From Owenweeksia sp. (GTDB taxonomy: Bacteria > Bacteroidota > Bacteroidia > Flavobacteriales > Schleiferiaceae): a stretch of 64,000 nt of DNA. The notes beneath the pieces are model-generated. The model saw nothing but the letters and a program-made list of their open reading frames with translations, ran no database searches and was not told where the DNA came from. Positions 30,715-47,534 of the stretch are shown here, piece after piece; position 1 is the first letter of the stretch, and the number at the start of each line of letters is the position of its first letter. The stretch lies in the NCBI GenBank assembly GCA_002695025.1, contig NZNV01000023.1, forward strand, positions 1-64,000, read 5' to 3'. A program made the translations under genes and the position numbers.

Positions 30715-33700
30715 CTATTGACCCAGATTTAGGCGGAAACTCAACCCAAACTGATGGGTGGTAATAGGGTAAGCATTGGAGGTTTTAAAACGTGAAAGGT
30801 TCAGATCATAAAAGAACTTGGAATTAACCCGTTTGCTAAGCTGGTAATCAGCCGAGAACTTCAAGGTTACCACTTTTTGCCCGGCCGTAGGCTGGCTGAT
30901 ATCCTCCAGTATCCTGCGGATGATGGTTACGTTATCCCTTATTGCCACGTCTGCCTTCAACTCCAGGTTAGAAACCGGGTTAGTTCTGCGGGAGCCTATG
31001 GAAATAAATTTCAGACGTACATCTTTTATAATGTAACCGGTACCCACTACCCATTCCGTACCCTTTGTTTCGGTAAGCTGGTTGTTGGTAAGGCTAAGAG
31101 TAAGGTTGCGGCTTTTCTTATATTCAAGCTTAATGCTCATGCTGTTCTTCAACTTCATGTTAAAGCCCACCAGAGGAGCAAACTGCTCACTGAGTACAAC
31201 GGCCCCGATCTGGAGTTCCGGAAGAAGGTCTCCGTTTTGGTTAATAGGAGCCCTATCCGGGTATTCCTGCAATTGCTGATCGCGCAGTAAGTTGGTGGAT
31301 ATATTGCTAATGGTATAGGTAGAACGGTACGAATGACTAAGCACCATACTATTGAAAAAGCGCTTGACAAAGTTCAGCTTACCCAAACCATCATAGGTAA
31401 CCTGCCAGTTGGGAATAGGTGTTTTTCGCCTGGGGTTGGCACCAAAGGAGTTGATATCACTACCTGAGTAGGCCGCGAGGAAAGCAGGGATAAGCACCTG
31501 CTGCGATACATAGCTGAAATTCTGATAACCATAGCTGGACGAATCCTGCGGAACATCCCGTAAGGTGGGGGTATATCCATCGGGGGCATCCCCGCTATTG
31601 GCATACTCTACCGCCAGTTGACGTGATATTACTTCGCGGTTGGCAAGGAAGGTATTGTATGCATCCGAACTGTAGTCCGGAGCCTTACTTGATTCAAAAG
31701 CAGTGGGCAGAGTATAATAACTAATAGTGTAATTCTGGGTAGTAAAGCTATTCTGGCTCTCAAAACGGGGATCTCCTATATCAGGATCATCGTTGAAGCG
31801 GTAGAATTCAGATGTATTGGAAGATTGTGATTTATCTGCGGTAAGCACTATCCGGAGGTCATTGGCCGGTTCAGCAGTAACCCTGAAATTCATAGACTCG
31901 TTGTAGGTACGGCTGTACTGGTTGTTCAGGTAAGGCGTGGTTACCAACCAGTCACGGGCTACCGCCTCATCGCGTATATCAGCCTGATCTCCTAAAGTGA
32001 AAAGATAACCAGGTGCGTACCCTCTGGCATCATCCATCCCCAATATAGAGGCCTGGGGTTTAAACCCGGGCAGCAGAGTTCCCTGCGTCTTACTGAAATT
32101 GGCTGAGGCATTCTTGATCATCATTAGTGTTTTCACCGTCCCGTCCAGTACTTTCTGAAAAGCGGAGCGTTCCTCTTCCTCTTTATCCTCATCACCCGGG
32201 GACCGCTCAGTTCTTCCCAGCGCATTTTCCCGCAAGGCTCCTCTCCGGGCATCCGGGCGTTTCCGGGTGCCCTGGTTTACCCTACGGAGATAGGGAAACT
32301 TGTTATAAAGCGCCACCAGGTTAAAACTATTATTCAGCTGCAACTGCATGCTGTTTTGAATGGTATTACCAAAGTTCAGGGAGTCCGGTCCTTCCTGGGC
32401 ACGCAGGGAGTTTGCGTTCCAGTCATAATCACCGGTATACCTTGCTGAAACATTGGCAAACTCAAAAAACGGCAACTTATTAATGGGAACCTGCCAGTTC
32501 AGGTTAACCGTTTGATGGTAATTGGTGGGACGTCCGAAATTTTTCAGGTTCTTCCATATCTCTTCGCGGTTACCCGTAGTATCCGGGGCTCCGGATAGCT
32601 CATCAATACGGGTATTCATACGCGCATTAAAGTCAAACTTCAAAGACTTGGTAATATCGTAGAGCAAGCTATACTGCCGGTTAAAGGTAAAGGACTTGTT
32701 ATAGGTTACCGGCAAGCCATTGGGAATGTCCAGCTCAATATCTCGTGCCTGAAGGATATTGTAGGAACGGTTAAGAGTTCCTATAACGGTAAAGTTTTTA
32801 GGATACCAATAGAAGTTAAAGTCGCGTACCAGGGCCAGGTGTTCAGACTGCAGGAACTTTACTTTCTTAAAAGGTTCCACGGGCTTCGGCTGGGTCTGGT
32901 AGGTATAATTAAGACTTCCCATATAATCCCTTCTGATGTCCTGCTTCACGTTGATATTCCTGCGTACTATTTCATTAAAGGAATAACTGGCACTGAAATT
33001 CTCTATATCATATACCTGGGGCGCTTTTTTGGCTTTATCACCCGTTCTCTCTTTTCGGACGTTGGTAAAGTTTATGGATTTCCTGCGGGTATAATCCTGC
33101 GCTATTTCCTTCAACTCTTTTCGGTCTTCGGGTGTCTCAAGGTTATTCAGGGCATCATCAAACTCAATATCGGGGTCCAGGGGATTAAACTGGGGGTTTT
33201 TCCATTCTTCACTCAGGCCGAAATACATGGGAATACGAAGCCCAATATCCTTGGCAAAGAACATTCCCAGTTGAAAACTACTCTGGAGATCATAGGCGTA
33301 AATCTCCTCCTTCTGCCTTTCGTTCACATTCTGATCTATACTACCAAAACCTACCGAACTGGTCCGCCCGCTAAGGGACACATTGGCAAAATCTGCCAAT
33401 TGTGCGGCTACCCGGGCGTTGGCCGCCCAACCGCCACGTTGGTCAAATTCGGTAAGCCGTAGTTCGTTTACCCAAACCTCAGCACACACAGAGTTATTAT
33501 TATCGCGGGTCTTAGGGTTCCTCAAACCAATCATTATAGTCCGCACATTACCCAGGTTAGGCGCTCCTACTACGGAAATTTCTGCCATACTTCCTGCCGC
33601 ACGACCTTTTCTCACGGTATACTTCTCGGTATTACTGATGCCGTTTGTGCGATAGACCCGGTCCCGCTCCAGTTTAACCTCCTTGAATTCAGAAAGCTCA

Positions 33701-36700
33701 AAATCCATCTCGTTCCCAGCAGGCCATATCAGGTCTTCATCTGTTGTTCCCCAAGGAGTTGCCTCCAGGGGTATTTCGTATTCGTAGTAGTTCTGATTAT
33801 AGTCACTACCCATACGAATGAAAAGGTTTAGATCTCCAGTACGCAAATTATCACTGGCGTTACCGGTAGCTTCATTAACCAGCGATTCTGCGTGGGCAAA
33901 CATCTTGAGACGGTTGTACATGCGCATGTCGAACTGCAGATTCCGGAATACGGCACGGGCAGCTCCATCCTTCAGATCACATACCCGAAGGGAAAGGGAC
34001 TGTTCATTTTGTTGCTGAGAGCTGGCTGTACCAAAGAGTACCTGGCGATCAATACCGGGAGGCAAAACGTAGGGTATAGGGTCACGCGAGGCGTTCTGTT
34101 CAATATTTACCGCTGCCACTTCAAAGAGCGTTTGGTCGCCCTCATCCTCTTCCAGGCCATCCCCGAATTCATCGAGGTTAAAGCGGTACCTTCTCCACTC
34201 TCCGCGTATCAGTTCAAGGCGGGCAAAGCGCAGGATTACCGGCTGATCCCATCCTTTCATAAACATCCTGATAAACCTTATGGATCGGAAATCACTGATT
34301 GGACCGACCTTCTTATCCGGTTCAAAAATGGGTATCTTGAATTGTACCCACCTGGACTGCACCGTTTTGCCGTTGGGCAGGGTCTTACTTTCAGCCTCGC
34401 GGATATCTGTGATATACGGGTGGCTTAGGGTGAGATTATTTTGGCTGAGCACCACCTTGTACTGGTAGTAAGTTTCAGATGTATTAAGAGTCTGGTCGCC
34501 ATTGATGTCTTCAATATCCGGGTTGTTGGTGGCAAATGCCGATACCCCGTCAATGGTTTGGGGATCACTGTTACCATCCGGGTTATTAAAATTCTTATAA
34601 CGCTGCGCGATACCTTGCTGCGAAAGGCTGGGGTCACGGTAATAGAGGAAGTTATCGTTAGAAGGATCCGATTGGGCTGCCTGGTACACCGGGTTGCTCT
34701 GATCCCCGGTAAGTTGTTCAATACGGCTCAGGAAGCTTTGCCCTCCCTGATCTACGGCAAAGTTAGCTTCCTCAGTATCACTTAAAAGATCATATCCCAC
34801 ATCCTGGATTTCTCTGGAAGCCGGATCGTTATCAAACGCAATAACGGGAGGTCTTACCCGGGGGGTATATCCCCAGTAAGTGGTGTCCAGCTTGGAAATA
34901 TCGCCATCGGCAGGCTTACCGTTCTCAATGGCCTGCTTTCCATCCTTAAGGATATCTTCACTAACACTTCCCAGGTTAAAATACAGCTCCCCTCCTTCCG
35001 GGTTTGCTTCGGATCCTTCCAGGAATGGATCCAGTACCCAGAACTGGATAAACTCAATATTCTGTTCTTCAAAATTGGTGGAACTCAGATCCCGCATAAT
35101 ACCGCCCCAACGGGAAGCAGGTTCATTCAGTTCCCCAGTTTGTTTCATACCGGCCGACACCGAGGTTCTTTCCACATCAAAGTTATAGGGCCCTCGTTCT
35201 TCAGGATAAAAGGCCAGGTCCAGTACTGGAATATTCTGTACCTGCGATTTATCTATCTCCAGCTTTGGAAAAACCTCCTTTATATCCACCCTCCGGGTGT
35301 ATTGCTCCGATTGCAAATCCGGGTTGTCCTTAAAAACCTGGGGGGTGCGGGAATCGGAACCGTGGAATAGTGGATCTACCGTATACCAGGCCAGCTTCGC
35401 CCGGTTATAGCCATAGGACACATCGCTGGCGTCAGCTTCCGGGAAAAGGTCGGGCTGGCCACCAGGTACACTGGCGAGTTGCCAGGCCCTTGGATTCCTG
35501 ATATCAATGGTGGTCTGGCTGTTCTCAAAATCATCCAGGTAAGTGGTGGGCTCCCCACCTATTTCAATACCTCTTGGTGAGCCGGGAACCAGTTGCGCAT
35601 ACTCTCCCTGAACCGTTATATTGGATTTGGCCTTGGTGTCTATAAACGGGATGGCATCCACCGCCCTGGTAAGGAAGGGCGCCTCTTTGGTGTAAGTTCC
35701 GTTTAGGCCAAAGATAGTGTTGGCTATGGGTTCATCACCGATATTGGTTTTTTGCGTTAGTGGCCGTTCCGCCAGGCGTAATACCGTAGCTCCTACATTG
35801 AGATTCTGATTTACTTCATAGTCCGCATTCAGGCCCATGAAGGTTTTGGTCTGGAAATTAAAAAGGGAGTTGTTTTCAAAATCCACCTTAATGGGTATAC
35901 CGGAGTTCAGTATTCCCTCATTGATAATACGTACGCGGCCAAGGTTATAATCCACGGTATAGTCAACATTCTCTACCAGTTTGGTACCACCAGCCGAAAC
36001 CGTAACCGACCCCTGGGGAATATTAAAGGCATTCAGTGATATTTCGCTGCTGGATGACGATTTGAAGGTACCTTTTAATAAGTATTTATTGAGCTGGGTT
36101 TCATTTTGAGCCTTAAAACGCGTAGAGTCGTAGAGTTGATGGTATACGTACTTTTCACGGGAATCTTCCGAATCCAGTTTCCGCGCCAGGTTGGAACCAA
36201 AAGGCTCCAGCACCGGGAAGATGATCTTGGCTGTTTGGGTATTGATAGTAATACCGGGCACAAAGTCAAAGAACCCGTCCGGTTGCGGGTCATTATTATT
36301 ATTCAGGCGGTCCAGTTCCATAACCCGCAACAGTAGCTGATCATTCAGGTTACCATCCGGAAGGAAGGGCACCGGGGTACCTCTTTCGTCATCACGGTAA
36401 AGGATATTAAGACGAAAATCCTCACGGTTTACCTGGAAAGCATTCAGGGAATAGATGTTTTTCATCATCAGGTCCCACATAGGTGCGTTTACGTTGAGAA
36501 CAGTACTCTTTAACATCTTCACCACCAGGTTTTGCGGAGGACTAACCCCATCGGTTGAAAATTCACCCACCTGATAGGTTTTACCGCCAGCGGTAAACTG
36601 GAAGGCTACCGCCAATACCTCATCCTGGTTTAAGGCTGAAGTAAGCGAGATATAACCCAACTGGGGATCATAATTATACTCGGTAGGCCTCAATTTGCGT

Positions 36701-38040
36701 GCATTGGCCACCTGTACGTATTCCAGGGTTTCCTCAAACCCCCGTGAGTTGAGAGCGGTATTTACACGCGAGATATCACGAACACCCGGGAAGTTTTTCT
36801 CCAGGGCTTCCGGGTTCAAGGCGTTATTCCGGTTGTCAGGAAAACCCCGGTAGGGAAAAAATCGACCGAAAATATCGTAACCAGGCCGGTTGGCTGAAGT
36901 GCTTCGATAAGCTCCGGAGCCATCCTTTTCACCCAAATCCATAAAGGCAACAATGTTTCGGGTATTCTCAGTTTCAGACCGAGTATTGGTTACCCATACT
37001 TCCACCTTGGTGATCTGTACCGGTGAAATGATAAGCGGCATCTGCGAAAGAAAGCTCTCATAGTTGTCACGGAAATACTGGGACAGGAAATAGTGTTTGT
37101 TGGCTTCGTACTGGTCCGCATTAATTTCAAAATCCGTGGTGGTAGCTCCTCCCTGAACATTAATAGAAGAAGACTGGCTTCGTTGTTCTGAGAACACACC
37201 GGTTAAACGCAGTTTACCAAATTGGAACTGGCCTTTTACCCCAAAAAGGCTTTGAGCCCCGCTGATCAGTGAGCTATTGAGCGGCAGGCTTACGTTACCG
37301 AGTTCTATCTTCTTGATAATATCATCTTCATCACCGGTAAATTCCACCTTCATCTGGTTCTCAAATGAAAATGTGGCTTCGGTATCATAGTTCGTGGTAA
37401 TCTTCAGTTTTTCGCCAATCTTACCGGTTACGTTCATCTGTATCCTTTGATCAAAATCAAAGTTGAAAGTGGAACGGTTGCGCTCCGGTATCAGGGGGTT
37501 GTCAATATTCTGAATACGACCACCAAAGCTCAACTGAGCATAACCCTGAGGGCGGATATCAATGGTATTGCTACCAAAGATCCTGGCAAAGCTTTCACTG
37601 TTTACCTGTATCTGAGGAATCAGGGAATTGCTGGGGTCTCGCCCCTCTGCCTTGGCAGCTTCTTCACTTTGTGTTTTGCTTTTCCAGTAATCATCAACCT
37701 GTTTCCGGGCTACATAATTGCGGTATTCCTCAGGCGTCATGAACATAGGGGGGCGAGCCTGAATGTTACCGATCTTAGGGGTTACAATATACTGTCCCGT
37801 TTCAGGGTCGTACTCTACCTCTTCCTTGTAATTGGAGGGGTTATCCAAGTAAAGCCCCCCTTCCTCTTCTTGAAAGGGATAAGGAAGGGTACTATCAGGC
37901 TCCGTACTATCCGCAACCATTTTTTCCCAGGGTTCATTGCGGTTACGAATGTTCGGCTTCCTGCTATTTACAGCGGAAAGCGTGAACACCGCTGCCACGG
38001 AAACAAAAAATACTATAGCCTTCAGCGTATCCTTTCTCAT
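30715..38040 (-). CDS. sprA: Type IX secretion / gliding protein SprA (outer-membrane translocon)
   Basis: 2441 residues, the size expected for SprA/Sov. Signal peptide region [19 protein letters not shown], then a very large series of beta-strands rich in aromatic and Asn residues throughout, including [38 protein letters not shown] and the C-terminal strand [14 protein letters not shown]. SprA forms a 36-strand beta-barrel through which type IX substrates leave the cell. The ATG overlaps the ruvA stop (TAATG), so the two are translationally coupled. A substrate with a C-terminal sorting domain is encoded 900 bases beyond on the other strand. Confidence 0.96.
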
Positions 38041-38951: not shown

Positions 38952-41051
38952 ATGAAAAAACTTTATGCATTACTTCTTTTTGTGGTAAGTGCGGGCATGC
39001 TAAACGCTCAATACTACCTTCTTCCAGCGTATGATGTTGGGTTTAACCCCGGAGAATTAAACAGTGACCCGGAACAAACCGAAGCATCCCTGGCCAGTGG
39101 TAGTTACGGCTGGACTACCATCATGAACTCTACTACTACTGATACATGGTCTTCTTCACAGGCCCTTCCTTTCAGCTTTAACTTTAACGGAAATGCCGTA
39201 ACCAGCTACCAGGTGTCAAATGCAGGGGTACTTACCTTCAGCTCTTCCCCAGGAATGGCCCCTCCCACAACTCCTTCTGCACTCCCTAGTGTTCTGTTGC
39301 CAGATAAATCCATTTGTGCATGGGGCATTAACATTGGAGGTGCCAATGACGCCATACTAAGCAAGACCTTCGGAACCGCTCCCAATCGTCAGCACTGGGT
39401 ATTTTTCTCATCCGCTTCACACCCGGCTTTGGGAGCAGGATCATGGACTTACTGGGGCATTGTTTTAGAGGAAAGCACTGACAAAATCTATGTTGTGGAT
39501 CAAAGGACCTACAGCCCCACCGGAACGGCCAACGTAGCTGTAACCGTTGGTATCCAGACCAGCGTTGGTTCCGTGATACAGGTTCCCTCTTCCCCGAATG
39601 TAAGCAGTGGAACTACTGCAACCGGTGGCTCAGGTGATGACCCTAGTGATAATACCTGGTACGAATTTGCTTTCGGTACCCAGGCTAACTATGACATAGC
39701 CGGTGTGGGACACACTATCCCACAGCTGGTGCAAACCGGTTCAGCAAACAGCCTTACCCTGAAATTCAGGAACCGTGGAGCTTTTAATATTAACTCTATG
39801 GACCTCAATTATCGCATTAACGGAGGTGCCGCAGTAACCACCAGCCTGAGTTCTCTCAACATTGGTTCGGGTGATTTTTACGAGATCGCTCACCCTACTG
39901 CATGGACTCCTCCTACGGATGCCTTTTACACCATTGAGGCATGGGCCTCCAACCTTAACGGTAACAGTGATGGCGTAAATAGCAATGACACTATTACCAT
40001 CCAGGTGAGAGCCGTTGCCAACCCTCCTGAAAGAATAGTAGTAATTGAAGAAAAGACCGGAACCTGGTGTGGATGGTGTCCACGCGGACTGATCGGTATG
40101 GACTACATGACCACCCAATACCCCAACAGCGTAGTAGGCATTGCCGTTCATAACGCTGACCCCATGGTGGTTGGAACTTACGATGCCAACATTGGCACGG
40201 TAGCTCCCGGAGGTTATCCCGGTTCAGCGGTTGACCGTATCCTGGGTCCTGACCCTAACAATGTGGACCTGGAAGATGCTTACAACGAACGTCAGGGTGT
40301 GCTTCCACAAGCCACTGTGGGTATTAGCGGTCTTACCTATAATGCAACAAATGGACAGATCTCTGTAGATGTTTCCGCAGAATTCTTTGCTGATTTCAAC
40401 AATGCTGACCTGCGTTTTGTAATGGTATTGACCGAAGACAGCGTTACCGGATCATCCAGTGGTTATGCCCAGGCAAACTACTATAGCTTCCAGTCTCAGA
40501 ACATTGCGCTTACCGGTTACGGTCGCAACTGGCAAACTTCCCCCTCTACCATTCCAGCCAGTGAAATGCATTATGATCACGTAGCCCGTGGTATTTACCC
40601 TAACTTCTTTGGTGCAGCAGGAAGCGTTCCTGCCAACGTTAGTTTCGGACAAACGGTATCCTATACCATGAACGCCAACCTGCCCAATGCCGTTCAAAGC
40701 GATAGCCGCGTTCATGTAGTGGTTATGCTGGTGGATAATGGTACTTATGAAGTACTGAATTCCAAAAGTGTAAAACTGAAAGGCCAGATCGGCAACGAGG
40801 AATTGTCCAATGCCAACGTTCTTGTTTATCCTAACCCAGCAGCGGATCATTTCTATGTAAATGCCGAAGCTATGGGAGGAGATGTAAGCATCAACCTTGT
40901 AAACAGTATAGGACAGGTAGTTCGTTCTTCTGAACACGAATCTTCAGAAGTTATTGAACTGAATACCTCTGACCTGGGAACAGGAGTTTACATTCTCACC
41001 ATTGAATCTGATGATGAAAGCTATACCCAGCGTATAAGCATTGTACGATAA
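38952..41051 (+). CDS. Omp28-like thioredoxin-domain protein with type IX sorting domain
   Basis: 699 residues. Signal peptide MKKLYALLLFVVSAGMLNAQ; a beta-rich N-terminal region (about 20-350); then an Omp28-type thioredoxin-like domain starting IVVIEEKTGTWCGWCPRGL with CxxC at 373-376; and a C-terminal type A sorting domain (about 615-699: VLVYPNPAADHFYVN, INLVNSIGQVVRS, LNTSDLGTGVYILTIESDD, ending QRISIVR). Should be secreted by the SprA system and anchored to or released from the surface. Sits upstream of a terminator and a second thiol-redox operon. A surface disulfide-handling enzyme is the likely role; substrate unknown. Confidence 0.92.
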   Translation: MKKLYALLLFVVSAGMLNAQYYLLPAYDVGFNPGELNSDPEQTEASLASGSYGWTTIMNSTTTDTWSSSQALPFSFNFNGNAVTSYQVSNAGVLTFSSSPGMAPPTTPSALPSVLLPDKSICAWGINIGGANDAILSKTFGTAPNRQHWVFFSSASHPALGAGSWTYWGIVLEESTDKIYVVDQRTYSPTGTANVAVTVGIQTSVGSVIQVPSSPNVSSGTTATGGSGDDPSDNTWYEFAFGTQANYDIAGVGHTIPQLVQTGSANSLTLKFRNRGAFNINSMDLNYRINGGAAVTTSLSSLNIGSGDFYEIAHPTAWTPPTDAFYTIEAWASNLNGNSDGVNSNDTITIQVRAVANPPERIVVIEEKTGTWCGWCPRGLIGMDYMTTQYPNSVVGIAVHNADPMVVGTYDANIGTVAPGGYPGSAVDRILGPDPNNVDLEDAYNERQGVLPQATVGISGLTYNATNGQISVDVSAEFFADFNNADLRFVMVLTEDSVTGSSSGYAQANYYSFQSQNIALTGYGRNWQTSPSTIPASEMHYDHVARGIYPNFFGAAGSVPANVSFGQTVSYTMNANLPNAVQSDSRVHVVVMLVDNGTYEVLNSKSVKLKGQIGNEELSNANVLVYPNPAADHFYVNAEAMGGDVSINLVNSIGQVVRSSEHESSEVIELNTSDLGTGVYILTIESDDESYTQRISIVR

Positions 41052-41070
41052 TTTGTTTTCAATAAAGATA

Positions 41071-41097
41071 AAAGGCCGGGTGTAGTTCCCGGCCTTT
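41071..41097 (+). terminator. Strong terminator after the Omp28-like gene
   Basis: AAAGGCCGGG (41071-41080) pairs perfectly with CCCGGCCTTT (41088-41097) around TGTAGTT, followed by TCATTTTT. Confidence 0.88.
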
Positions 41098-41159
41098 TCA
41101 TTTTTGGGTAAGGCTCAATCTAATTTAATAGCTTCGCAAGGCAAAATTTAATTTGGTCT

Positions 41160-41167
41160 TATATTTG
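41160..41167 (+). promoter_or_regulatory. -7 element TATATTTG of the tlpA operon
   Basis: Exact TAnnTTTG match, 55 bases above the tlpA ATG at 41223. A TTG at the usual distance is not clear. Confidence 0.45.
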
Positions 41168-41175
41168 GTCCATTA

Positions 41176-41196
41176 AGCCAGGGCCATAGCCTGGCT
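41176..41196 (+). promoter_or_regulatory. Leader hairpin in front of tlpA
   Basis: AGCCAGG (41176-41182) and CCTGGCT (41190-41196), a perfect 7-base stem with loop GCCATAG, followed by CTTTT and then ATGAACG. It lies at the predicted 5' end of the mRNA, so it may stabilise the transcript or act as a weak attenuator. Confidence 0.45.
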
Positions 41197-41222
41197 CTTT
41201 TATGAACGATAATTTTTATTCT

Positions 41223-41735
41223 ATGAAAAGATATACTCCCCTTCTGATTTTGGCATTTTTCTTTCTGGCTATAACAGCCAAGGCTCAGGACAAAATACCA
41301 TCCATCAAAGTGAAGGATCTGAACGGAAATGTGGTAGACGCTTCTAGCCTTGCCAGTAATAATGGTAAACCCGTAGTAATAAGCTTTTGGGCTACCTGGT
41401 GCAAACCTTGCGTACGAGAGCTCAATGCTATCAAAGATCAGTACATTGACTGGCAGGATGAAAGTGGTGTAAAGCTTATAGCTATTTCCATTGACGACTC
41501 CCGTAATTCTGCCAAAGTAAAGCCTTTCATAACCGGTCAGGGCTGGGAATACCCTGTTTACCTGGATGAAAATTCAGAGCTTCGCAGGGCTCTTAACGTG
41601 AACAACATTCCTCACACTTTCCTGCTGGACGGTAAGGGCAATATCGTGTGGCAGCACAATGGCTATATTCCCGGTGATGAAGACCATCTTTATGAGTTAA
41701 TAACCAAGGTTTCTAAAGGCGAAAAAATCAAATAG
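41223..41735 (+). CDS. TlpA-family periplasmic thioredoxin
   Basis: 170 residues from ATG 41223 (MKRYTPLLILAFFFLAITAKA), which gives a signal peptide; seven upstream codons from 41202 are likely untranslated. Redoxin domain with SFWATWCKPCVREL (active-site cysteines 60 and 63) and cis-proline NIPHTFLLDGKG. TlpA/ResA-type thiol-disulfide oxidoreductases keep periplasmic cysteines reduced, for instance in cytochrome c or CuA maturation. First gene of a four-gene operon; 19 bases to the next. Confidence 0.93.
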   Translation: MKRYTPLLILAFFFLAITAKAQDKIPSIKVKDLNGNVVDASSLASNNGKPVVISFWATWCKPCVRELNAIKDQYIDWQDESGVKLIAISIDDSRNSAKVKPFITGQGWEYPVYLDENSELRRALNVNNIPHTFLLDGKGNIVWQHNGYIPGDEDHLYELITKVSKGEKIK

Positions 41736-41754
41736 TAACCATTAAAGCAAACGG

Positions 41755-43458
41755 ATGAAAAAACTTTTTACCGGCTTTAACCTACTGGTATGTTCTTTTT
41801 TATTGGCCCAGAACAACAATGATTTCGGACAGATAAGCGGAAATTTCCAATCCGATTTTCAATACTACATAGAGGATACACTTATTGATCCCTCCGGAGA
41901 GGCTAACCCCGATGAACGGGTTTTGGGTACCGGCTTTTTGAACCTTACCTACACTAAGGGAAACTTTATAGCAGGAATACGGTACGAAAACTATCAGAAT
42001 CAAAGAGTGGGGCTGCCCGCAGGCTACAATAGCGAGGGTATTACGTATCGCTATGCCCGTTTTATTAAGGATGGCTTTGATGTAACGGCCGGTAATTATT
42101 ATGAGCAATTCGGAAGTGGCCTGGTATTGCGCACTTATGAAGAACGCGGACTGGGTATAGATAACAACCTGGACGGATTACGTCTGGTCTATCAGCCGGC
42201 AGCCGGTATCAACTTAAAAGGTATCATTGGCAGACAACGTAACTATTTTGAGAAAGGTGATGGCCTTGTGCGGGGATTTGATGCGGAGTGGAGCTTAAAG
42301 CCTACTCTGGGATGGACAGGGAACACCAACCTCATTATAGGTGGTAGCTTTGTAAGCAAATACGAGGCAGCCAACGATCCGGAATTAAACCTCCCCGAAA
42401 ATGTGGGTTCCGGTGCCATACGCGTGAACCTTATTACGGGTAACTTCAACATTTATGGTGAATACGCACGGAAGTCTACCGATCCCAATGCGTACAACGG
42501 CTATATATTTAAAGAAGGGGAAGGACTGTATGCCACCGCTTCCTACGCCAATAACGGCTTAGGTGTATCGCTGGGCTTCAAGCGCTATGACAACTTCTTC
42601 TTCAAATCGCAGCGCGAATCAGACCTTCAACAATTATTCATTAACTACCTGCCTTCACTCACCACTTTACACACCTATACCTTACCGGCCCTTTACTCCT
42701 TCAACACCCAGGGGAATGGTGAAATGGGTTTTCAGGGAGAAATCTCTTATAACTTTAAACGGAACACTCTTTTTGGTGGAAAGTACGGTACTCTCCTAAC
42801 ATTGAGCTACGCCAATAGCTATAGTCTTGATAAGGACTATAAGCTACGCCCCCGCTATTCACCCGCGGATACTACTATCATTGATAGTGTACTGCGCGGT
42901 TCGCAAGGGTATTCCAGCTCTTTCCTGGGCCGTGGACCTTATACCTACTTCCAGGATTTCCACATGGAGATCAAAAAGAAACTCTCCAAGAACTGGCGTG
43001 CTACAGCCACCTATTACAACTTTGTGTACAATTTCAGCACCCTTATCAAGGGTGCATCAGATTACGACTATGATGCGGCCGGTAGCGAGCCCGATATATT
43101 TACGGTTAATGCCGGTGTGCTGGAGTTACTCTACAAGATCAAGCCCCGCCATTCGCTGCGCACCGAGATACAAGGTTTGTTCACCGAGGGAGACCGTGGG
43201 GACTGGGCTTTATTGTTATTGGAATACTCTATAGCACCCAGCTGGTTCTTTGCTATACAGGATGCCTACAACTACGGAAACCCGGAGGAAGACCTTCAAA
43301 TTCATTATCTTAGCACTAATGTGGGTTACTCCTTTGGTACTACCCGCTTTCAATTGGGTTATGGCCGGCAACAACAAGGAGTTTTCTGCGTTGGAGGTAT
43401 TTGCCGTATCGTTCCGGCCTCCAATGGGTTCACGTTTAGTGTTACTTCAAACTTTTAG
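41755..43458 (+). CDS. DUF6029-family outer-membrane beta-barrel protein
   Basis: 567 residues. Signal MKKLFTGFNLLVCSFLLAQ, then QISGNFQSDFQYYIEDTLI and repeated aromatic beta-strands to a C-terminal Phe (ASNGFTFSVTSNF). The pattern YARFIKDGFDVTAGNYYEQFGSGL and GLRLVYQPAAGINLKG matches the DUF6029 family often coded between TlpA and Omp28 genes in Bacteroidota. A barrel of about 24-28 strands would fit the length. Its stop is three bases before the Omp28 lipoprotein gene. No function assigned to the family. Confidence 0.86.
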   Translation: MKKLFTGFNLLVCSFLLAQNNNDFGQISGNFQSDFQYYIEDTLIDPSGEANPDERVLGTGFLNLTYTKGNFIAGIRYENYQNQRVGLPAGYNSEGITYRYARFIKDGFDVTAGNYYEQFGSGLVLRTYEERGLGIDNNLDGLRLVYQPAAGINLKGIIGRQRNYFEKGDGLVRGFDAEWSLKPTLGWTGNTNLIIGGSFVSKYEAANDPELNLPENVGSGAIRVNLITGNFNIYGEYARKSTDPNAYNGYIFKEGEGLYATASYANNGLGVSLGFKRYDNFFFKSQRESDLQQLFINYLPSLTTLHTYTLPALYSFNTQGNGEMGFQGEISYNFKRNTLFGGKYGTLLTLSYANSYSLDKDYKLRPRYSPADTTIIDSVLRGSQGYSSSFLGRGPYTYFQDFHMEIKKKLSKNWRATATYYNFVYNFSTLIKGASDYDYDAAGSEPDIFTVNAGVLELLYKIKPRHSLRTEIQGLFTEGDRGDWALLLLEYSIAPSWFFAIQDAYNYGNPEEDLQIHYLSTNVGYSFGTTRFQLGYGRQQQGVFCVGGICRIVPASNGFTFSVTSNF

Positions 43459-43461
43459 AGA

Positions 43462-44289
43462 ATGATGAAGAGATTATCAGTACTATGCGGTTTGGCTGTA
43501 ACCATGATGAGTTGCACTAAAATAGATCAACCGCTTAAAAATGAATACGGCTTTGTTCCCTTGCCGGATAGTTCCAGTAAGGTTCTATTGCTGGAAGAAT
43601 TTACAGGAACTTCCTGTAACAATTGTCCCAAGGCAGCAGAAAAAGCCCGGGAGTTTCATGAAACTTTTCCCGGTCAGGTAGTACTGTTATCCATCCATGC
43701 CGGGGGATTTGCCATCCCCAATTCTAAGCATCCTGATGATTTCAGGACCGATGCAGGTAACGAGATCTATAACTTTTTTAAACCCCAGGGCGTACCCAGC
43801 GGAATGTTTGATCGCAGCGGCCATCCTACTCCTGGCGCACCTGTGTTGCTTTCCAAATGGGATGAAGCTATTGTAGAAGAACTCAATAAGCCGGCATTAA
43901 TGTCCTTAACGCCTACCTTCAAGTATGATGAGGGAACCAATAAGCTTTCGCTACGCACGGAAATAGTGGCTACCTCCACTCTACCTGAAAGTGATTATTT
44001 TTTCAGCGCATTTGTTTATGAAGACAGTATTGTTGCACCTCAAACCCTGGAAGACGGGGTAACGGTGGAGCATGACTATGTACACATGCACATGCTACGG
44101 GCAAGCTTTACCGATAATGCTTTTGGTAAAGCCTTGGTGAGTGGCAGCATCAATAATGGAGCCGCGTATGCTCAGGAATATTCTATTGCCGTGGATCCAA
44201 AATGGGACGTCAATCACGTAGGAGCCGTATTCTTTGTGTATGATCGCAACACCTACGAAGTGGTACAGGCCGGAAATGCCCACCTGTAA
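43462..44289 (+). CDS. Omp28-related lipoprotein (thioredoxin-like)
   Basis: 275 residues (ATG at 43462 or 43465). Lipoprotein signal with MMSC (Cys18). Omp28 domain starts VLLLEEFTGTSCNNCPKAAE with CxxC at 52-55, then VVLLSIHAGGFAIPN and the cis-proline segment GVPSGMFDR. The rest is a beta-sandwich. Tethered by lipid, probably in the outer membrane. Together with TlpA and the type IX-secreted Omp28 protein it makes three CxxC thioredoxin-fold proteins in 6 kb. Confidence 0.9.
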   Translation: MMKRLSVLCGLAVTMMSCTKIDQPLKNEYGFVPLPDSSSKVLLLEEFTGTSCNNCPKAAEKAREFHETFPGQVVLLSIHAGGFAIPNSKHPDDFRTDAGNEIYNFFKPQGVPSGMFDRSGHPTPGAPVLLSKWDEAIVEELNKPALMSLTPTFKYDEGTNKLSLRTEIVATSTLPESDYFFSAFVYEDSIVAPQTLEDGVTVEHDYVHMHMLRASFTDNAFGKALVSGSINNGAAYAQEYSIAVDPKWDVNHVGAVFFVYDRNTYEVVQAGNAHL

Positions 44290-44291
44290 CT

Positions 44292-44906
44292 ATGCAAAAC
44301 TGGTTTACGGCACTTCTGCTCACCGTGTTTTTCGCCTGTTGTGCTGATTTATCGGCTCAACGTTTTGGCGGGGGAGTTTTCCTGGGTATGGCCGGTAGCC
44401 AGATAAACGGTGACAACCTCGCGGGTTATAATCAGTATGGCTTTAACGGAGGCTTTCTTACCAATATAACCTGGGGTAAAAAATCCACGGCCCAGCTAGA
44501 GCTTGCCTTTATTCAAAAGGGTGCCCGTGAACCCAATAGTGATACCAGTAATTTTTATCGCGCCCGGCTTAATTATATTGAAATACCTCTCTTATACATT
44601 TATCGTTGGGGCGAATTCTCCCTGGAAATCGGCCCGGCCCTGGATATATTGGTAAACTCCCATGAAGAGACTTACGGGGTGGAATATGAAAGTAACCCTC
44701 CTTTTCACCGGTTTAACCTTACCGGAATAGCCGGGGTAAACTGGCATTTTTCGGAACGTATGTACATCAACTTCAGAACTAATAATTCTATCCTGGCTAT
44801 ACGTGACGGCAATGCTCCCAAGACCGCGAGTCCGTACATACAGTTTGGCTATGGGCAACGTAATATGGTCTTGTCTTTTGCCTTGGTGTATACCTTTAAT
44901 CCTTAG
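44292..44906 (+). CDS. Porin-family outer membrane beta-barrel protein
   Basis: 204 residues. Signal peptide [22 protein letters not shown]. PorT-like small barrel: [30 protein letters not shown] at the N-terminus (shown in part), [24 protein letters not shown] in the middle, and an end strand [13 protein letters not shown]. Outer_membrane_beta-barrel family (PF13568 type). Two bases below the Omp28 lipoprotein, last gene of the operon; overlaps the convergent queG by 11 bases. Confidence 0.88.
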
Positions 44907-45964: not shown

Positions 45965-46309
45965 ATGTATTCGAATGAACTTATAAAGGGAACCCTTAAA
46001 ACAATTGTTTTAAAGCTTCTTTCTGAAAACGGGAAGATGTACGGTTATGAGATGACCCAGAAGGTAAAAGAGCTCACCGATGGGAAGATTATTATAACCG
46101 AAGGCGCGCTATATCCGCTGCTTCATAAACTGGAGGCAGACGGACTGTTGATTACCGAAAAAGTACCCATTGGTAAGCGAGTGCGTAAGTATTACTCACT
46201 TACGGACCAGGGTTCTTCATCGGCTTCGGAAAAAATTGCTGAATTCCTGGACTACATGAAAACCATGAAATTCATACTACAGGGAGATAATGGTCTCGCT
46301 CTCGGATAA
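45965..46309 (+). CDS. PadR-family transcriptional regulator
   Basis: 114 residues, the short PadR-s1 form. Starts MYSNELIKGTLKTIVLKLLS; winged helix with MYGYEMTQKVKELTDGKIIITEGALYPLLHKLEADGLL and the wing VPIGKRVRKYYSLTDQG. The gene overlaps the following membrane-protein gene by 20 bases, the usual arrangement in which PadR represses a membrane protein or transporter. Inducer unknown. Confidence 0.94.
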   Translation: MYSNELIKGTLKTIVLKLLSENGKMYGYEMTQKVKELTDGKIIITEGALYPLLHKLEADGLLITEKVPIGKRVRKYYSLTDQGSSSASEKIAEFLDYMKTMKFILQGDNGLALG

Positions 46310-47534
46310 CCAAATAGATACCATCCACGACCTGCTGCTAGGCAGAGGTATAACACTGGACAGTCTGCGGTTTGACCTGCTGGATCACGTCTGCTGTATG
46401 GTAGAGGAAAAAATGGAAACAGGGGTGAACTTTCAGCTAGCCCTGAAAGATTCCATTCAGCAATTTGGTGAGGATGGCCTGCATAAAACGCAGGAAGCTA
46501 CCCTCTCATTACTTAATTCAAAATCAATTATCATGAAAAAAATATCAGCCGTTTTAGGGATCATCAGCAGCGTTCTTGCCTGTGCCGGTGGTTTATTCAA
46601 GATCATGCACTGGCCCGGTGCCAATGTATTGTTGTTATCGGGCATTGTGGGTATCGTATTTCTGTACCTGCCCATGCTCATTATTGTCAAATTCCGGGAA
46701 ACAGAATCCACTTTGCTTAAGTTTTCTTACGTTGCCGGACTGTTCGGAGCCATGGTAAATGGGCTGGGGGCCTTATTCAAGCTCATGCACTTCCCAGGAG
46801 CCAATTTCCTCATCATTACAAGCTTATTGATCATTGGCCTGATCTTTATGCCCATCTATTTTACACATGCAGTGAGGCTTGCTGAAAACAAGCTTAGTAA
46901 CCTGGCCTTTGCCGGGGTTCTGCTGGTTGCTCTGTTCCTGCTGTATGGTTTAACCGGTGCTGGAAATAGCTCTACAATGAGCGACAGTGTATACGTGATG
47001 CATCAGAATTTAATGGATGAAATTGACCGCGCCCAGACCGAAAGAAAAGAGGCCTTTGCAGGGCTTCCTGGTAATGATCTCTCCCTTAAAACTGAGAAAC
47101 TGCTCGACTACATTTCCGGGTTCCGTACCCATGCAATTATGATGTCTCAAAATGTTCCGGAAGAAGAAGCGCGGGATATGAATATCCGTAATATGTACTG
47201 GGGTACCGGCATCAAGGGCTTGCACCGAATGCTGGATGAGCATCCACAGTATAATCCAGGCACATTGCGTAAACGACTGCAAAACTGGCAAGCCCAGGCT
47301 GCTGAATACGGTCTGGCAAATCAGCTTTGCTGTGAGCCCGTTCAGGGGCCTGAAGGAGAACTGAGCTGGGAAGAAGCACACTTTGGACATAGCTGCACCA
47401 TCCTTTCCCTGGTTTCCTTCCTTGATCAGCTACAACTGGAAATCAACCAGAAAAGTCTCCACCTGGCCTGGCAGATCCGGTATCAGAAGGGTGCCAGCCA
47501 AACCGCCTCGGACACTATTGTCCAGGCTTCCTAA
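46290..47534 (+). CDS. Membrane protein with duplicated GldL-like motif, PadR partner
   Basis: 414 residues. Preceded by AGGGAG three bases before the ATG, one of few Shine-Dalgarno-like sites in the window. Residues 1-75 are a soluble helical head (IHDLLLGRGITLDSLRFDLLDHVCC). The membrane part has two similar helix pairs containing FKIMHWPGAN (103-112) and FKLMHFPGAN (163-172), exactly 60 residues apart; this motif is typical of the first helix region of GldL/PorL motor proteins. A third membrane block ends about 222. The C-terminal 190 residues are soluble and helical, with MSQNVPEEEARDMN and a Cys-Cys pair. I do not know its function; GldL kinship is inference. Confidence 0.82.
   Translation: MVSLSDNQIDTIHDLLLGRGITLDSLRFDLLDHVCCMVEEKMETGVNFQLALKDSIQQFGEDGLHKTQEATLSLLNSKSIIMKKISAVLGIISSVLACAGGLFKIMHWPGANVLLLSGIVGIVFLYLPMLIIVKFRETESTLLKFSYVAGLFGAMVNGLGALFKLMHFPGANFLIITSLLIIGLIFMPIYFTHAVRLAENKLSNLAFAGVLLVALFLLYGLTGAGNSSTMSDSVYVMHQNLMDEIDRAQTERKEAFAGLPGNDLSLKTEKLLDYISGFRTHAIMMSQNVPEEEARDMNIRNMYWGTGIKGLHRMLDEHPQYNPGTLRKRLQNWQAQAAEYGLANQLCCEPVQGPEGELSWEEAHFGHSCTILSLVSFLDQLQLEINQKSLHLAWQIRYQKGASQTASDTIVQAS

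Follow-up and report, generated by a model that had tools for sequence, protein, structure and literature searches.

A conserved gene module joining a cysteine-paired DUF6029 barrel to thioredoxin-type proteins in Bacteroidota: a candidate thiol–disulfide relay across the outer membrane

Introduction

Surface thioredoxins such as HBP35 have measured activity; by what route would electrons reach them outside the cell? A locus of Owenweeksia sp. (assembly GCA_002695025.1, contig NZNV01000023.1; genome size 4.46 Mb) raises this question in a concrete form. In the 64,000-nucleotide (nt) stretch analysed here (positions 1 to 64,000 of the forward strand, hereafter the window), five plus-strand genes encode, in order, an Omp28-related protein with a type IX secretion system (T9SS) tail, TlpA, DUF6029, an Omp28 lipoprotein and a small barrel. 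An initial annotation, made from the sequence alone, read them as a possible relay moving reducing power or disulfides from the periplasm through a barrel to the cell surface. Does the module carry thiol electrons across the outer membrane? With modest confidence, we take a trans-outer-membrane thiol–disulfide relay to be the best explanation of the gene set. The genes lie where the initial annotation had placed them, as follows:

38952-41051, plus strand: gene 1, T9SS-sorted Omp28-related thioredoxin-type protein of 699 amino acids (aa) (Pfam Por_Secre_tail; Omp28 below the cut-off when searched as a protein)
41202-41735, plus strand, start probably 41223: TlpA-like thioredoxin (Pfam AhpC-TSA)
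41755-43458, plus strand: DUF6029 outer-membrane beta-barrel (PF19494, full length)
43387-43404, plus strand: CVGGIC (CX4C), DUF6029 residues 545-550, in the small hairpin that links the final two strands
43462-44289, plus strand: Omp28 lipoprotein with an N-terminal thioredoxin-type domain (Pfam Omp28)
44292-44906, plus strand: small outer-membrane barrel, OMP_b-brl_2 (Pfam), closing gene of the operon and not always present

The last four genes are as tightly packed as had been described, with gaps of 19, 3 and 2 nt from TlpA through DUF6029 and Omp28 to the small barrel. The three thioredoxin-fold motifs could be located by residue: CGWC in gene 1 (residues 373-376, nt 40068-40079, with a Gly-Tyr-Pro motif downstream), CKPC in TlpA (residues 67-70, nt 41400-41411) and CNNC in the Omp28 lipoprotein (residues 52-55, nt 43615-43626). 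The proline motifs downstream of all three are read as the thioredoxin cis-Pro. What the initial annotation missed is the CX4C pair of the barrel itself (nt 43387-43404). This pair, a TlpA–barrel fusion, surface-signal partners that replace one another and a small protein with a CX3-4C pair are four findings beyond that annotation which, at the level of sequence, have strengthened the case for a relay.

Conservation of the gene linkage

PF19494 is present in 105 of 392 Bacteroidota genomes (103 above the cut-off), spread over 27 family codes. From the 105 neighbourhoods fetched, L135 (below the cut-off, without CX4C, a spurious match) was dropped, leaving 104 loci from 103 genomes, two of them from G180. 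In a six-frame search with profiles made here, 101 of the 104 DUF6029 loci have a TlpA/Omp28-type gene no more than 400 nt away. The neighbourhood check proposed in the initial annotation is thus passed, and the outcome that it had named as contrary, DUF6029 mostly occurring without thiol proteins, is not what the phylum presents. Three loci lack such a gene within 3 kb: L042, L069 and L084, of which L084 sits at the end of its contig. TlpA lies directly upstream of DUF6029 in 89/104 loci, one of which (L040) is a fused protein itself, and at least two thioredoxin-type matches fall within 3 kb in 85/104 (fused proteins count themselves). By position, thioredoxin-type genes occupy 159/206 places at ±1 versus 12/450 at five or more genes away. 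Because the profiles of neighbouring genes were refined on these very loci, and because those for TlpA and Omp28 cross-match, the division between the two labels is approximate; Pfam provides an independent check. It finds AhpC-TSA in 82 of 103 immediate upstream neighbours (L084 has no upstream gene) and, among 98 immediate downstream neighbours, Omp28 in 52 and redoxin in 20; the downstream count excludes L033 (no gene), L074, L077, L081 and L087 (each over 1000 aa) and L076 (588 aa).

A set of 80 named loci was also compared. L224 lacks DUF6029 in its gene calls; of the remaining 79, 68 have TlpA at −1, and 73 have a gene of thioredoxin type at +1. The six-frame count took all 80 and found no TlpA/Omp28-type gene within 3 kb in one, L191. 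Ten named loci, that of Phaeocystidibacter luteus (L176) among them, repeat the window's full order of five genes, and all of them carry a T9SS-tailed Omp28-type gene at the place of gene 1, and 11 more have the order without gene 1 there. The closest named relatives of the window's DUF6029 by similarity are Schleiferiaceae/Cryomorphaceae, e.g., Phaeocystidibacter luteus. Within the window's taxonomic order, six loci (L031, L032, L033, L035, L036 and L070) keep the Omp28-type gene divergently upstream rather than downstream. The small barrel (OMP_b-brl_2, Pfam E-value 1.3e-16) is less constant: 24 of the 184 other loci compared have a relative two or three genes after DUF6029. In the window's own genome there are 13 AhpC-TSA matches (12 over the cut-off) and three Omp28 matches, two of the latter in the module. 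DsbD was considered as a regular neighbour and rejected: it is the next gene in a single genome, L035, and the four other phmmer matches are short open reading frames of 155-159 aa. The gene set kept across the phylum pairs thioredoxin-like proteins with a cysteine-paired barrel, which suggests a thiol wire to the surface.

The DUF6029 barrel and its cysteine pair

The DUF6029 protein matches PF19494 with 564.9 bits against a cut-off of 27 (profile positions 1-538, E-value 2.4e-169). Its AlphaFold model is confident (predicted local distance difference test, pLDDT, 92.3; predicted template-modelling score, pTM, 0.88) and appears, by eye, to hold about 24 strands. The top solved fold match is the FimD usher pore (Z 18.1, 375 aligned residues, 4.6 Å, 11% identity), which ranks within 1 Z of porins and other barrels; the matches are those of a generic wide barrel and include wide pores, porins, the alginate exporter AlgE and 6r2q_B (E-value 5.1e-8). 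Searched by sequence against the PDB, DUF6029 gave no match. Wzi, an 18-strand polysaccharide porin, is not among the listed fold matches, an absence that carries no weight against it, and OPX genes were not searched for.

The CX4C pair sits in the last hairpin in 103 of 106 DUF6029 sequences, the exceptions being a frameshift (L068), a truncation (L070) and the spurious match L135. In the window's class its form is, for example, CVGG[VI]C; other classes can have CIGGVC, CTNGVC or CTSGIC. Exactly two cysteines lie beyond residue 25 in 80/106 sequences; in the window's protein, the only cysteines are the CX4C pair and Cys13 of the signal peptide. In the AlphaFold model, a short hairpin joining the last two strands holds the pair, and this hairpin is predicted to face the extracellular side, because both ends of such barrels are periplasmic. 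All 80 named loci have the CX4C; however, that set was chosen by motifs including CX4C and is not independent evidence. L177 was left out of A5, its frame holding a stop or X.

A profile of the hairpin (A1) has one significant match in the window's own genome, the DUF6029 gene, and one weak match with internal stops (E-value 0.128). It gives one match in each of 15 sampled genomes, always DUF6029, and matches 23 of 31 relatives (own genome included); G408 has two, of which the one at the start of a contig is probably part of a split copy. The idea that TonB-dependent receptors share the CX4C hairpin was dropped, as in the own genome and the 15 sampled ones the significant matches of this profile are DUF6029 only. 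We regard the conserved CX4C of the barrel as the main new evidence for a putative redox function.

TlpA and its fusion to the barrel

The window's TlpA matches AhpC-TSA with an E-value of 1.3e-23, and the cysteines of its CKPC are the only two in the protein. Translation more likely starts at 41223 (MKRYTPLL...) than at 41202, and the signal peptide predicts a periplasmic location. In an alignment of 35 module TlpA sequences (A8; 34 of 68 named-locus sequences plus the window's), W66, C67, P69, C70 and P137 are invariant. The AhpC-TSA/Redoxin domain, the CxPC and, by position, the cis-Pro are those of a TlpA/ResA-like protein; the ResA model NF002854 scores 94.4 bits against a cut-off of 170, which makes the protein TlpA-like rather than ResA. 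Its closest solved chain is 2m72 (160 bits).

In two genomes of the same genus, G292 and G388, TlpA and DUF6029 form one open frame:

L040:6995-9028, minus strand: TlpA–DUF6029 fusion, Pfam AhpC-TSA at 34-146 and DUF6029 at 165-676
L044:6530-8530, plus strand: TlpA–DUF6029 fusion, single open frame

The order is a signal-like start, a TlpA domain with CVPC and a DUF6029 barrel with CVGGVC. Neither genome has a short TlpA gene beside DUF6029; a TlpA-type gene of ~480 aa lies at −3, and an Omp28 gene adjoins divergently in both. By frame length, the fusion occurs in 2 of the 21 DUF6029-bearing genomes of that family sample.

Outer partners

The window's Omp28 lipoprotein scores 75 bits against PF11551 (cut-off 34.9) and 146.8 bits against NF033782, just under the cut-off of 150 (profile positions 2-258 of 264). 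Its lipid-anchor cysteine, C18, the CxxC cysteines C52 and C55, P56 and the cis-Pro-like P112 are invariant across 51 aligned partners (A7; 50 of 71 named-locus sequences plus the window's). The element order in its model (pLDDT 89.7) reads as thioredoxin-like, and the Omp28 profile aligns with TlpA around the active site with a probability of 88%.

The phylum sample has 73 thioredoxin-type partners at +1, 52 of Omp28 type and 21 TlpA-like. Among the former, 21 are lipoproteins by a strict pattern, 14 carry a T9SS tail (profile built from the window's tail) and 17 were called as neither, although many of these 17 look lipoprotein-like by eye. The TlpA-like partners divide into 11 lipoproteins, five with a T9SS tail and five called as neither, one of which is the DsbD of L035. 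The partner type varies by lineage between an Omp28 lipoprotein, a T9SS-tailed Omp28, a CPHC redoxin lipoprotein and a T9SS-tailed CPHC redoxin. Judged by these motifs, the outer partner appears to swap type yet keep its chemistry.

As separate observations, the genes 3′ of DUF6029 in L117-L130 encode CPHC-type redoxins, often as a tandem pair of ~175 and ~270 aa, and a 270-aa relative in L132 carries a T9SS tail.

A small T9SS protein and the sprA context

A T9SS-tailed protein of ~240 residues is found near the DUF6029 module in 66 cases from 64 of the loci compared (e.g., the three below).

L083:5641-6366, small T9SS protein
L035:12365-13111, small T9SS protein
L176:2687-3388, small T9SS protein

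It carries a CX4C pair in 30/66 cases and a CX3C pair in 33/66 (FCFGxxCY-like); the three with neither (L045, L048, L052) may not belong. In 26 sequences picked to span both spacings, the pair is invariant. These 26 match no Pfam family, and the only NCBIfam result is a weak similarity of two of them to a sortase model. Strong matches to the protein (E-value below 1e-20) were found in 18 of 31 relatives, of which 14 lie within 5 kb of DUF6029, three are on another contig and one is in a genome without a DUF6029 match. The protein was rejected as a member of the window's module: it is absent there, and the window's genome has weak matches only (best E-value 5.5e-6).

The initial annotation had set the module next to sprA. 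The SprA gene (window 30724-37848, named by TIGR04189) is indeed close by; however, it is on the opposite strand, one 195-aa gene, presumably ruvA, lies between, and sprA was rejected as a part of the module. Of 184 other DUF6029 neighbourhoods, 25 contain a relative of the 195-aa gene and 23 one of the SprA gene, so the arrangement is a lineage trait and the adjacency is incidental. The T9SS itself is relevant to the module, since several partners are T9SS substrates by their tails. SprA was found in 42/42 DUF6029-bearing genomes that could be crossed by hand between the two lists, versus 82/116 others. This overlap counts for little, as one family code accounts for 19 of the 20 SprA-less genomes listed (14 more are unlisted).

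Comparison with known systems

HBP35 (PDB 5y1a) is the top solved match of the window's Omp28 model (fold E-value 3.3e-11), and the Omp28 profile also finds it by sequence (residues 26-270, E-value 2.6e-9). HBP35 of Porphyromonas gingivalis carries a C-terminal sorting domain and is located on the cell surface, and its measured thioredoxin activity needs C48 and C51; its authors propose a role in surface redox status and call the physiological role unknown (PMC2907840). Its secretion by the Por system is the subject of a further study (PMC3120885). HBP35 has a T9SS-type tail, whereas the window's Omp28 partner is a lipoprotein, and the part of the HBP35 report that was available mentions no barrel or TlpA partner (PMC2907840).

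The Omp28 of P. gingivalis itself (PDB 2r2c) matches the Omp28 profile with an E-value of 2.7e-32. The chain 2m72, closest to the window's TlpA, is one which we take to be PG_2175; PG2175-PG2174-PG2173 would then be the same operon as the one described here. The Omp28 of that species is PG2173 (PMC9722745), and PG_2174 is listed as an uncharacterised vesicle protein (PMC4335976). In the portions of the literature covered, no redox role or joint function was found for the P. gingivalis Omp28 and 2m72 proteins, and PG2174, PG2175 and Omp28 were looked for in PMC8729774 and not found there. DUF6029 has been linked by HHpred to Wzi-like polysaccharide barrels (PMC9603273).

We note likenesses to two classes of electron conduit. 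MtrCAB (PDB 6r2q), an outer-membrane conduit with multiheme cytochromes, likewise combines a barrel with inner and outer redox partners; however, it uses cytochromes where thiols would serve here, and none of the five module proteins has a CxxCH heme motif. DsbD, CcdA and ScsB are inner-membrane thiol relays which pass thiol electrons between thioredoxin-type proteins via a cysteine-paired membrane protein, as is proposed here for the outer membrane. The difference is that their cysteines lie in helices, whereas the module has a beta-barrel with one CX4C, and no DsbD-type transmembrane domain was matched by Pfam in the five module proteins. The usher FimD/PapC is the top fold match of DUF6029, yet at 11% identity it amounts to a wide-barrel resemblance only. 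The initial annotation did not recognise the system as a described one. Literature searches, including those for a thiol relay across the outer membrane and for thiol–disulfide exchange with type IX secretion, returned no account of such a module in the portions of the articles covered.

The proposed relay and its alternatives

In the relay that we propose, DsbD/CcdA-type inner-membrane proteins would charge the periplasmic TlpA, which would dock at the periplasmic mouth of the DUF6029 barrel and exchange electrons with it. These electrons would pass from the CX4C, close to the barrel's outer end, to the CxxC of a thioredoxin-type partner beyond, be it an Omp28 lipoprotein, a T9SS-anchored Omp28 or a redoxin. 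This partner would maintain the proper redox state of proteins on the cell surface, with the small CX3-4C T9SS protein as a candidate client. Such an anatomy is suggested by a TlpA with a signal peptide, a dithiol at the far end of the barrel and a CxxC partner with an export signal. We tentatively favour an outward net flow, reducing the surface, because TlpA-type proteins are usually reductants, DsbD is a neighbour once, and CPHC resembles the more oxidising DsbA motif. The linkage, the barrel dithiol, the TlpA fusion and the partner signals all fit a relay such as the initial annotation had put forward; the proximity to sprA is no part of the module.

More specifically, but only tentatively, the module may give Bacteroidota a dedicated outer-membrane counterpart of DsbD, in which a wide DUF6029 barrel with TlpA plugged or fused at its periplasmic end and a redox-cycling outer CX4C feeds HBP35-like thioredoxins and an undescribed CX3-4C carrier. 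If true, this would be, to our knowledge, the first thiol-based electron conduit across an outer membrane. With a specific candidate conduit, defined cysteines and defined partners, the question becomes testable by point mutants. DUF6029 and the unannotated small T9SS family also gain a redox hypothesis, the first for either, which a gene fusion backs.

Several points weigh against a relay. Lying between the last two strands of the model, the CX4C would by topology face outward, at a distance from any TlpA docked at the inner mouth, and a direct handover would need TlpA or the hairpin inside the barrel lumen. The conserved CX4C could be a structural disulfide. No clear surface-export signal was found after the lipid cysteine of Omp28, and the lipoprotein could, from its sequence, stay on the periplasmic leaflet. 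L042 and L069 have no thiol-type neighbour though their contigs run on (2/104), 15/104 loci lack an adjacent upstream TlpA by the script rule (the fused L044 and the contig-end L084 included), and DsbD is adjacent only once. In Escherichia coli, traits that depend on dsbA were restored by HBP35, the role of an oxidant and thus the opposite direction, and its authors, in the part of the report available, give no positive result for protection from oxidative stress (PMC2907840). Finally, DUF6029-like barrels have been tied to polysaccharide export, a hint at another function (PMC9603273).

The alternative that survives best, though we judge it rather doubtful, is a disulfide-maturation cassette, in which TlpA and Omp28 form, proofread or isomerise structural CX4C disulfides of the barrel and of the small T9SS protein, and no electrons cross the membrane. 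Here, the conserved CX4C sits in a protein that is not a thioredoxin, and a second non-enzyme neighbour, the small T9SS protein, has such a pair. LptD offers a precedent of a barrel whose disulfides are set by Dsb proteins. The capacity of HBP35 to act as an oxidant in E. coli also fits maturation (PMC2907840). However, a permanent TlpA–barrel fusion and T9SS-tailed partners exceed what folding needs, which speaks against this explanation without deciding the matter, as do the 85/104 loci with two or more thioredoxin-type matches (fused proteins again counting themselves).

We consider it unlikely that DUF6029 is an uptake or export porin for hemin, a metal or polysaccharide, with thioredoxin-type partners that bind or reduce the cargo and cysteines of secondary importance. 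HBP35 does bind hemin, and its mutant grows poorly without hemin (PMC2907840); by HHpred, Wzi-like barrels resemble DUF6029 (PMC9603273), the fold matches include wide pores, porins and AlgE, and the upstream gene of L038 encodes a family 2 glycosyltransferase. However, the neighbours conserved across the phylum are thiol proteins, and among ten neighbour proteins scanned there were one glycosyltransferase and no TonB receptors or heme proteins, most neighbour clusters not having been scanned. That widespread Bacteroidota genes merely happen to lie together next to sprA, a T9SS gene, can be dismissed. Genes of TlpA type are fairly common, with 13 AhpC-TSA matches in this genome, yet the idea is already refuted by the linkage in 101/104 loci and by the fall from 159/206 at ±1 to 12/450 at a distance; the TlpA–DUF6029 fusion and the presence of DUF6029 in 27 family codes of the phylum sample also speak against it.

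Gene 1 and other features of the locus

The tail of gene 1 scores 53.8 bits against the Pfam T9SS tail (cut-off 27), and SprA is encoded in the same genome, which together qualify it as a T9SS substrate. Against Pfam Omp28 (PF11551, cut-off 34.9), it scores 31.5 bits as a protein and 35.8 bits in the six-frame search. Gene 1 is probably transcribed apart from the TlpA operon, because a stem with a T-rich tail lies 3′ of it:

41070-41098, plus strand: terminator-like stem of 11 bp with a T-rich tail, between gene 1 and the TlpA operon

This stem is the longest listed, and such sites number six in the region against 6.8 expected by chance. The Bacteroidota −33/−7 promoter pattern has no match in the module and three in the window versus 2.5 expected. 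Immediately 5′ of the TlpA start, at 41176-41196, is a 7-bp GC-rich stem followed by CTTTT, possibly an attenuator or leader structure.

Farther along, a gene often found 3′ of the small barrel (L251:6799-7437) forms a cluster present in 17 loci, at +3 on the same strand in 15; one scanned member belongs to the Flavoprotein family PF02441 and is probably an unrelated housekeeping gene. Outside the module, the 414-aa product of window 46290-47534 holds two stretches of GldL_N type (37.2 bits against Pfam GldL_N), and the 114-aa gene before it presumably encodes a PadR-type regulator.

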